32,845 bases of DNA from Candidatus Altimarinota bacterium (GTDB taxonomy: Bacteria > Patescibacteriota > Gracilibacteria > BD1-5 > UBA6164): positions 1-32,845 of the forward strand of contig JAQUKG010000007.1 of assembly GCA_028719245.1 (NCBI GenBank), read 5' to 3'. The notes beneath the pieces were generated by a model. That model ran no database searches. It was not told where the DNA came from and saw nothing but the letters and a program-made list of their open reading frames with translations. A program made the position numbers and the translations under genes. Positions 17,446-20,720 of this stretch are shown one piece after another. Within the stretch, counting starts at the first letter, position 1, and every line of letters begins with the position of its first letter.

Positions 17446-17588
17446 TTTTTTATAGTTAAAATTTAAAAACAAGTGTATTATATGAAAAAAAATATTTTGG
17501 CAAAAGGAAGTTTTAATTATTTGTAAAATTATAGAAGAATGTTATATAATGATTTGTACTAAATATTAATTAATATGTCATTTATCGT

Positions 17589-17619
17589 ATGTAGATTTAT
17601 TGACTACATTGAATATAAT
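17589..17619 (+). promoter_or_regulatory. C-box-like operator and promoter of the C-R operon
   Basis: A perfect inverted repeat, ATGTAG and CTACAT, with a 9-base spacer occupies 17589-17609. It is followed four bases later by TATAAT (17614-17619), 29 bases before the controller ATG. No good -35 hexamer lies at the proper distance, as in C-protein-dependent promoters, where the controller activates from a dyad over the -35 region. A related sequence precedes the methyltransferase gene (19508-19528). An AT-only 14-base palindrome at 17563-17576 lies just upstream. The rest of gap 17446-17648 shows nothing else. Confidence 0.55.
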
Positions 17620-17648
17620 TAAAAAAATATTTTCTTATATAAATATGA

Positions 17649-17858
17649 ATGGATATAAAAATTAAATTCTGACTTAAAATTAAAGAATTAAGAAAAATAA
17701 AAAAAATTTCTCAAGAACAATTTGCTTTTAAATCTAAATTACACAGAACTTATATTTCTGATATTGAGAGATGAATTAAAAATATATCTCTGGAAAATAT
17801 TGAAAAGATAGCATTGGCACTTGAAATTAATTTAAGTGATTTATTTAATAATTTATAA
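17649..17858 (+). CDS. Xre-family controller (C) protein of the restriction-modification system
   Basis: A 69-residue protein that is essentially one helix-turn-helix domain: LRKIKKISQEQFA, then the recognition helix region KLHRTYISDIERG, then NISLENIEKIALAL and DLF. The size and the ERG...SLENIEKIA pattern match C proteins of type II systems (C.BclI/C.AhdI type). These dimerise on C-boxes and control the C-R promoter. The stop is 5 bases before the endonuclease ATG, so the two genes form one unit. The ERG glycine is TGA-encoded. It probably autoregulates through the dyad at 17589-17609 and delays endonuclease synthesis until methylation is in place. Confidence 0.85.
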
Positions 17859-17863
17859 ACAAT

Positions 17864-18613
17864 ATGACTAATTTAAAATCATTTAATATTTTTTTAGAAA
17901 GTGTAAATTTATCTAAATATAGAAATTCATACCAAAAAATTAAACTTGTAGAAATGGATTTGGATAAAGATATTCAAGCATTATATCATTTATATAAAAT
18001 ATACTGGAATGAGAAAAAATTTATTTCTTTTGATGAATTTTATAAAGAATATTTAAATGATAAAACTAATGAATTAGAAAATTTTAGAAAGAAAATAGAT
18101 ATGTGTAAAACTTGTTTTTATAAGTGATTACCGGCGAGAATATATAGAACTTGGGCAAGTATTGTAACACAAATACACTGATGATATGTTGCGGAACAGA
18201 TTTTCTGAAACTGAACAATTTCAATGTCAGAGAAATTGGATCGTAGTTGAATAGATTTTAAAATAAAATATAAAAATAAAGAATTAAATATACAAGTAAA
18301 AAAAATCTCTAAAAGTAGAGAAGTTAGAGTAGATAAAAAATCTAGGAAAAAGGTTGATATTCTTAATATATATTACTTTGTTCCAAATAAAAAAGATATT
18401 GATAATAAATTTCTAAAAGATGGAATAACTTTTAAAAAGACTTATAATGATTTCAATAATACATATATAAAAAAAGACTATTTAAAATTGTTAGATAATT
18501 GATTTGTTGTTTTTTCTGAGTGAATATTCAAAGAAATGAAAGATAATTATTCGGTTTTAGTTGATAAATGATTTGATACATTTTCACAATTACTATTTAA
18601 GGATAATAATTAG
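17864..18613 (+). CDS. TaqI-like type II restriction endonuclease
   Basis: A 249-residue protein close to the length I recall for TaqI (263). The central block RIYRTWASIVTQIHGGYVAE, then FGNGTISMSEKLDRSGIDF and LNIQVKK, matches the TaqI/TthHB8I family as I remember it. In that family LDRAGVDF holds the catalytic aspartates and VNIQVKK the lysine. Here these are Asp126, Asp131 and Lys147, with spacing identical to the Asp137, Asp142 and Lys158 of TaqI. The C-terminal LLDNGFVVFSE is also typical. TaqI cuts T^CGA, so that target is predicted here. Nine or so in-frame TGA codons sit on family glycines, so the gene works only with table 25. It ends with TAG, unlike most genes here. It is co-transcribed with the C gene; its stop lies 7 bases from the stop of the convergent methyltransferase. 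Confidence 0.85.
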
Positions 18614-18620
18614 AAAAAAT

Positions 18621-19487
18621 TTATAAAAAATTATTAATCCTATCTGTAAGACTATTTCATAATTTTACATAATCTTTATTTATCTCAAATCCTAAAAAGT
18701 CTAATCATAATTGTTTTGCAACAAAACATTCACTTCAACTTCATGCAAAAGGAATTAAAATTTTAGATTTTTTGTTTATATCATATGCTCATAATATAAG
18801 TTTTCTTGTTAATTCATTTGGCTTTTGAGTTGGATGTATAATTATTTCATGTTCCTTATGAAGTGGTTTATCTTTTGAAGGAAATATGTTATTACACCAC
18901 TTACAATAAAAAAATCTTTCTGTTGATCATTTTCATCAAGCTAAAGTTCAGATTTTTATAACATCTCTTGGTAATGCTCAACAATCATGTGCATTATAAA
19001 TAGTTTCCTTATCTCATTTACTAAATCTTCATCAAGTAGCTCTTCTTACTTTTCAAGCAGCATTATTTAAGAATAATTCAGTATATGGTTCTCTAACTAA
19101 ATCTTTATTAAAAATTGGTGTATTTTTCCAAGAACATATTATTGATTCATGACTTCTTTGCCAAAAATTTAAACTTGGAATGTTTTTATTTGTATAGTGC
19201 CATATTAACCATCTTTTATCATATTTAATATTTACAGATATATGGGCAAGAATTTCACTAAATCAATAAATATATATGGTTCAATTTTCTGATAAAACTC
19301 TAAAAGCCTCTTTTATCCATTTTTTACTCCATTTAACATATTCTTCCATATTTTGTTTATCAGATTTGTTTCAAAAATCTTTTCAAATGTTATATGGAGG
19401 ATCTGCTATTATTATATCAAATAAATTATCTGGTAATTTTTCCATTCATTTAATACAATCAATATTATATATTTTATTAAATTCCAT
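18621..19487 (-). CDS. Beta-class DNA methyltransferase (N6-adenine or N4-cytosine) of the TaqI-like system
   Basis: A 288-residue enzyme. Catalytic motif IV reads DPPY (residues 29-32) and is preceded by a short N-terminus. A variable target-recognition region fills about 70-210. The C-terminus carries HPTQKPNELTRKLI (motif X) and then the SAM-binding motif I as IPFAGSGSECFVAKQLG. The order IV-TRD-X-I defines the beta class. A CKWCNNIF cysteine pair lies before motif X. M.TaqI itself is a gamma-class enzyme with NPPY and its SAM site first, so this nuclease-methylase pairing differs from the TaqI system. DPPY is compatible with N6-adenine methylation of TCGA, but the base is not proven. The gene faces the C-R operon tail to tail; its promoter region shares an operator-like sequence with the C gene. 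Confidence 0.85.
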
Positions 19488-19507
19488 TATTTATTTCCTT
19501 ATTACTA

Positions 19508-19528
19508 AATGTCGTCAATAGATTACAT
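19508..19528 (-). promoter_or_regulatory. C-box-like element upstream of the methyltransferase gene
   Basis: On the minus strand this 21-base stretch begins ATGTAATC and ends TATTGACGACAT. It resembles the C-gene operator (ATGTAG...TATTGACTACAT) with one base deleted and three changed. It ends 20 bases before the methyltransferase ATG and includes TTGACG, so it overlaps the probable promoter. Binding of the controller here would let it repress or time methylase synthesis. The dyad is imperfect, so affinity may be lower. The rest of the gap 19488-19583 shows nothing else. Confidence 0.45.
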
Positions 19529-19583: not shown

Positions 19584-20720
19584 TTATAATAACTTTCTAA
19601 ACACTTCTACACTATCAAGATTTTCCCAAGTAAATCATTTTTTTCAAAAATGTCAGTAAGTAGCTGTTTTTTTATAAATCGGTTTTCTTAAATCAAGTTT
19701 TGTAATAATTCCATTTGGTGATAAATCAAAGTTTTCTCTAACCGCATTTATAATATTTTCAACTGGGAGTTTATTTGTTCCAAAACATTCAACATAAATG
19801 CTTATAGGATTTGCTATTCAAATAGCATAAGAAAGTTGTATTTCGCACCTATCACAAATTCAAGAAGCTACAATATTTTTTGCTAAATACCTAGCTATAT
19901 AAGCTCAAGATCTATCAACTTTTGTTGGATCTTTTCAAGAAAAAGCTCAACCTCAATGTCTTCAAACTCATCCGTAAGTATCTACAATTATTTTTCTTCA
20001 AGTAAGTCAAGCATCTCAAGTTGGACCACCAATATTAAAAACTCCCGTCGGATTTGTATAAATATTTTTTACATCTTTTACATCATATCAAAAATAAACT
20101 AAAACTGGAGAAATAACTTTTTTAATTAAATCTTGTTTTAAAATATTTTGATCAACTCAAAGTGCATGTTGAGTTGAAATTAATATAGTATCAACTCAAA
20201 CAGCTTTAAAGTTTTCATCATAAATAATAGTAACTTGAGTTTTTCAATCTGGATAAATATAATCAATTTCTCAAGATCTTCTAACCTCTTCAAGTTTTCT
20301 TCATAAATTATGAGCCATATCTATTGGTAATGGCATAAATTCTTTTGTTTCATTTGTAGCATAACCATACATTATTCATTGATCTCAAGCTCACCCCATA
20401 TCAACTCATTGTGCTATATCTCTTGATTGAATATGTATAAAATTTAAAATATTTACATTCTGATAATTGTAATATTTTTCATCACTATCATATCAAATAT
20501 CTTTTACAGTTTGTTTTGCAATTTGCATATAATCAACTTTTGCTTTTGTAGTTATTTCTCAAGCAATTACTAAATTTTGGTTTGCAGCTAAACACTCACA
20601 ACCTACTCTAGAATAAGGATCTTGTTTTAAACATTCATCTAAAATAGCATCACTTATTTGATCACAAATTTTATCTGGATGTCCAGAAGTAACGGATTCA
20701 CTCGTTATATATTGAAACAT
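19584..20720 (-). CDS. metK: S-adenosylmethionine synthetase
   Basis: A 378-residue enzyme that makes SAM from methionine and ATP, of normal length for MetK (about 380-400). The N-terminus reads [20 protein letters not shown], the family's methionine/ATP-site signature. It continues with the hexapeptide-type motif GAGDQGIMYGYA and the loop [19 protein letters not shown] that binds phosphates. In-frame TGA codons occupy glycines in all three motifs. It follows a SAM-I riboswitch and terminator on the same strand, so SAM feeds back on its synthesis. It lies directly next to a DNA methyltransferase, one of its consumers, but the two genes are separate units. Confidence 0.97.

Follow-up and report, generated by a model that had tools for sequence, protein, structure and literature searches.

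The question raised by this locus is how a restriction-modification module with a TaqI-like nuclease is controlled in a bacterium that has reassigned a stop codon, and which part of the arrangement, the control, the nuclease or the pairing of the two, is new. The stretch of 32,845 nucleotides that was analysed, called the window throughout, belongs to a 1.35 Mb draft genome of 113 contigs with an estimated contamination of 2.8% (label G000), in which TGA encodes glycine. An earlier note on this DNA had described a plus-strand controller (C) gene and a TaqI-like nuclease (R) gene facing a minus-strand methylase (M) gene, and this layout is borne out with all three reading frames intact under genetic code table 25, the only code under which they are open; the TGA codons fall at conserved glycines, for example in the methylase motifs DPPYNIG and FAGSGS. 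The genes are:

17649 to 17858, plus strand: C gene, 69-amino-acid controller of the HTH_3 type, with two TGA codons read as glycine
17864 to 18613, plus strand: R gene, 249 amino acids, RE_TaqI-family endonuclease with D126/D131...QVK146 conserved
18621 to 19487, minus strand: M gene, 288-amino-acid beta-class adenine methyltransferase

As only 5 bp separate the C stop at 17858 from the R start at 17864 on the same strand, C and R probably form one operon, while M is convergent with R, the two stops lying 7 bp apart.

The nuclease is assigned by its match to the Pfam family RE_TaqI (5.1e-39; 134.5 bits against a cut-off of 26.1), which spans positions 1-228 of the 229 of the profile, and by residues D126, D131 and K146, kept in every relative aligned; the spacing of its acidic residues is, we presume, that of TaqI. 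No sequence relative of R was found in the PDB or among the plasmid and phage records searched, and its AlphaFold model has a mean pLDDT of 68.6, low in the catalytic region. The methylase belongs to the Pfam family N6_N4_Mtase (8.8e-36), with RsrI, MboIIA and CcrM as solved-structure relatives, and carries a C-x2-C...H-x2-H motif (C195-C198...H210-H213) which is invariant in its relatives. Its DPPY motif (29-32) precedes FAGSGS (247-252), which places M in the beta class, the gamma-class order with the SAM motif ahead of an NPPY-type motif being absent. M.TaqI is a gamma-class methyltransferase, so only the nuclease is TaqI-like, and the earlier designation of the whole as a TaqI-like system holds for the nuclease and not for the methylase.

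R probably cuts TCGA. In 385 kb of the source genome this word occurs 34 times where 219 are expected (0.16), whereas two congeners that lack RE_TaqI show seen-to-expected ratios of 0.81 and 0.74; likewise, the TCGA:TCGT ratio is 0.12 in the source genome versus 0.81 and 0.73 in two congeners. This avoidance fits, as indirect evidence, a resident TCGA-cutting system, and it may be older than the C-R-M system itself. Other words are also rare in the sampled 385 kb, namely ACGT (4 versus 103 expected), GCGC (2 versus 17) and ACGC/GCGT (1 versus 42), and RCGY is avoided as though it were the target of a second restriction system; ACGT is low in the congener G002 as well. If, as these words indicate, one or more additional specificities containing CG are or were at work, the nuclease could have the TaqI fold and another target, the loss of TCGA being then due to another restriction system, present or past, and a methylase outside the class of M.TaqI would agree with that. 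We regard this as quite improbable, since the avoidance is specific to TCGA as compared with TCGT, TCGC and TCGG, is absent in the two congeners lacking RE_TaqI, and is accompanied by a near full-length match of R to the RE_TaqI family.

The 69-residue protein is a single-domain HTH_3 protein (Pfam, 4.4e-16), and its best matches by sequence among solved structures in the PDB, C.BclI (1.4e-15) and C.AhdI (8.8e-14), support its membership in the controller family of Type II restriction-modification systems, although these proteins have other nuclease and methylase partners and another operator sequence. Homologues of C occur in 12 genomes out of the order's 77, counting that of the window, and in none of the others does a TaqI-type nuclease stand beside C. 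The C protein of locus L035, next to a HinP1I-like nuclease, is 71% identical to that of the window by alignment (69% by BLAST); together with L037, L038 and L042, which possess another nuclease, the same-order systems cover 55-71% identity in C and match the window in their operator layout and in a -10 hexamer 4 bp past the right operator site, whereas their nucleases and methylases are unrelated to those of the window.

The predicted elements of the C-R promoter are:

17575 to 17588, plus strand: OL, putative left half of the C-box, with GTCATTTATCGT at 17577-17588, aligned with GCTATTTATAGC-type sites of related C genes
17589 to 17609, plus strand: OR, putative right half of the C-box, a perfect dyad ATGTAG-ATTTATTGA-CTACAT with a 9-nt centre
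17614 to 17619, plus strand: TATAAT, 4 bp past OR, predicted from sequence as the likely -10 box for C-R

The perfect ATGTAG-N9-CTACAT dyad previously noticed before C is indeed present at 17589-17609 with zero mismatches, and ATGTAG-ATTTATTGA-CTACAT has its sole perfect match there in the 1.35 Mb draft genome. By comparison with related loci, the dyad is the predicted OR, the right half of a bipartite OL/OR C-box; the site is thus real, but it is one half only, OL at about 17575-17588 having been overlooked. Nine related loci have, ahead of C, a left site (GCTATTTATAGC or a variant of it) and then a right site, TGTAGATTTATAGTCATCA; in each of these nine, the related C loci with an OR, a -10-like hexamer lies exactly 4 bp past that OR. 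The conserved unit is the 40-bp OL+OR and not the perfect 6-bp arms, most of the sites of related C genes being non-palindromic. A profile of this 40-bp unit, built from eight distinct related C loci with the window excluded, scores 29.9 bits at 17570-17609 with the runner-up in the window at 10.8, while an OR-only profile, from which the window was also excluded, gives 21.9 bits at OR and 13.6 at the next place in the window; the 19-bp OR core TGTAGATTTATTGACTACA occurs identically upstream of the L035 C gene. The earlier claim had been made to depend on conservation of the element in related loci, and the element does recur before related C genes. The dyad pattern itself, if 3 mismatches are allowed, is uninformative, with 39 matches in the window versus 19 expected.

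Operator and recognition region co-vary: proteins with TYIGN/TYIGI are found with TATAGTCATCA, those with TYIS/TYLS (window and L035) with TATTGACTACA, and, set against the GACT-type C-boxes with a TATA-like spacer that go with the Esp1396I circuit, the relatives have TTATAGTC and the window TATTGAC. The conserved operators tie the window C to C genes across the order in a way which would make operator specificity readable from natural variation. In three related loci (L039, L043 and L045) a perfect 28-bp palindrome, TAGTCATCATTATATATAATGATGACTA, covers the -10 region past OR upstream of C; it is absent in the window and is perhaps a third C site.

On the opposite side of the module, one further element precedes the methylase gene:

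19509 to 19528, minus strand: OM, putative single operator-like site before M, ATGTAATCTATTGACGACAT, 21 bp before M

A similar element at this place had been proposed to differ by one deletion and three changes; the element, ATGTA-ATCTATTGACGACAT at 19528-19509 of the minus strand, is present, and its best alignment requires one deletion and two changes. With a score of 14, OM is the top non-self match to the OR 21-mer in the window, where the next place scores 12, and among 2000 dinucleotide shuffles of the 103-bp leader of M not one attains its score. OM is similar, too, to the L035 OL, ATGTAATTTATTGAG; the gap in OM is the reason why the dyad pattern with 3 mismatches misses it. A profile scan tolerating gaps at any column gives 17.4 bits for OM and similar values, 17.3 and 16.8, for two other places in the window, so that the assignment of OM rests on its position and its likeness to the system's own OR and is less certain than that of OL and OR.

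Upstream of M, at a distance of 96 bp and in the same orientation, lies metK (19584-20720, minus strand), which encodes S-adenosylmethionine synthetase. A scan for promoters and terminators yielded matches no more frequent than in shuffles and no terminator-like site, and read-through from metK could therefore feed M regardless of OM. Joint acquisition of metK with the restriction-modification system was considered and found no support; metK has no match in three congeners, yet is present in 40 of the 77 genomes of the order. An empty insertion site was also sought, but gene order differs and no clean site was found among the congeners compared.

The co-directional metK and the two equal-scoring places in the gap-tolerant scan lend some substance to a simpler circuit, in which C governs the C-R operon alone, OM is a chance likeness or a shared promoter feature with TTGAC as -35, and M is expressed constitutively from its own promoter or via metK read-through; C proteins which act mainly at their own promoter are known, as in Csp231I (PMC4824078). 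This arrangement appears unlikely, though it is the most serious of the alternatives, as OM is the best match to the system's own OR in 32.8 kb, correctly oriented, 21 bp before M and unmatched in 2000 shuffles, as the likeness extends over the whole site beyond TTGAC, and as the TATAGTC of most related ORs does not make a -35.

The locus is, in our view, very probably a complete Type II restriction-modification system with an Esp1396I-like circuit, consisting of a TaqI-family nuclease and a beta-class adenine methylase that would protect the nuclease's site. By analogy with Esp1396I, whose C protein binds all three of its operators, we infer binding by C, activation, repression and an order of events as follows. 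Upon entry into a new cell, M would be expressed first from its own promoter, while C would initially come from a weak promoter until a C dimer at OL activates the C-R operon, and this dependence on C would make the nuclease appear late. With more C, a second dimer would occupy OR, against the -10 box, and switch C-R off, and C at OM would repress M and keep the methylase in check, so that both enzymes are capped later.

In Esp1396I the operators for C number exactly three (OL, OR and OM), and its OR reads TGTGTGATTATAGTCAACA, which is very near the OR ends ..TTATAGTCA.CA of C proteins related to the one of the window (PMC3758141). Shared with the window are the placement of C and R behind OL+OR and the separate single OM before M; the window differs in its RE_TaqI-family nuclease, in the use of code 25 and in TATTGACTACA in OR where the Esp1396I type has TATAGTCAACA. 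With TaqI, on the other hand, the window shares the RE_TaqI family of R and the avoidance of TCGA in the source genome, but it differs by its C gene, its beta-class methylase and its gene order; we know of no C protein in the TaqI system.

Whether the pairing of such a controller with a TaqI-type nuclease is new depends on its distribution. Among 60 relatives and 380 genomes of the phylum, RE_TaqI was restricted to the window and genome G417, and a genome scan added the loci L003 and L005. In G417 (L002/L004), L003 and L005 the R and M families are convergent as in the window, with 52-53% identity in R and about 58% in M, but these loci have no C gene of the window's family and carry a LexA part on M. 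An XRE gene before R in L005 was rejected as a second case of the pairing, being 25% identical to C and nearer to other XRE proteins. No C gene of the window's family stands beside another TaqI-type R in the relatives, phylum genomes and viral contigs searched (REBASE was outside the scope), nor was any report of a C protein with TaqI found in the literature accessible here, which lacked most subscription papers. The novelty claimed earlier thus narrows: the pairing with TaqI occurs nowhere else in the searched set, but C control as such recurs in 12 of the 77 genomes of the order and in the circuit of Esp1396I, and what looks new is the combination of C control with a TaqI-type nuclease only. 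The window offers in addition a full predicted C circuit (OL, OR and OM) in a bacterium that reads a stop codon as an amino acid.

Viral contigs display other arrangements, with a TaqI-type nuclease directly before a related methylase on the same strand and no C gene at L066:3298-4879 and L049:45-1638, and, at L006:4001-4222, a remnant in which only the initial ~60 codons of such a nuclease gene are left. The truncated R on L006 and the R of L005, split by a frameshift or a sequencing error, might suggest that such modules decay and that the window too is a silent island of non-working genes. This is hardly credible, given three full-length frames with conserved motifs, intact operators and the strong avoidance of TCGA.

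The window M begins at the methylase domain and lacks an N-terminal LexA wing and S24 part; the methylases of its closest non-viral TaqI-type kin carry a LexA fusion. That of G417 (L002/L004) has an N-terminal LexA wing (1.7e-9), those of L003 and L005 an entire LexA (wing + S24) that retains the Ala-Gly site, Ser and Lys. Fusions of this kind turn up repeatedly in the phylum: 362 genomes searched with a profile yielded ten full-length LexA-methylase fusions (L015, L017-L019, L021-L024, L026 and L030), which adjoin nucleases of MamI, BsaWI, MutH, BglII, ScaI and HindIII type, and the LexA partners are DNA methyltransferases of several specificities. Examples with wing + S24 and cleavage residues kept are:

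L003, 4678 to 6198, minus strand: LexA-methylase fusion
L005, 1086 to 2615, minus strand: LexA-methylase fusion
L015, 1501 to 3006: LexA-methylase fusion

That the window methylase once had a LexA part and lost it was considered and rejected as unsupported, since in the methylase tree, which left out the L002/L004 methylase, it groups, weakly (95/64), with viral methylases outside the LexA-fused clade. The leaders of the fusion genes contain a direct repeat of period 11 with at least 8 of 9 positions matching in 12 of 13 cases, where base shuffles expect 0.26, and each of the other periods from 7 to 17 is found in at most 1 of the 13; of the LexA genes that stand alone in these genomes, some likewise have period-11 repeats, with a different half-site (GTTTG/GTTCG).

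Tentatively, the controller of the nuclease-methylase module may be exchangeable, C serving in the window and a methylase-fused LexA in relatives as a damage-sensing protection loop. If LexA self-cleavage on RecA filaments is retained, nuclease breaks in under-methylated host DNA would derepress the methylase gene; the fusion would then couple self-protection to DNA damage caused by restriction, and the C circuit of the window would be the alternative solution. As a putative second answer to the problem of restriction-modification control the fusion is apparently undescribed, no account of it having been found in the literature within reach, from which most subscription papers were missing, and it is more surprising than the window system itself. 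The genome of L015 encodes a second long LexA-containing protein (L207, G324:C8:5464-5658, a 528-aa frame), possibly another fusion. At the ScaI-type locus L024, a C-family gene (381-596) before R and a LexA-fused methylase (1192-2685) bring both modes of control together.
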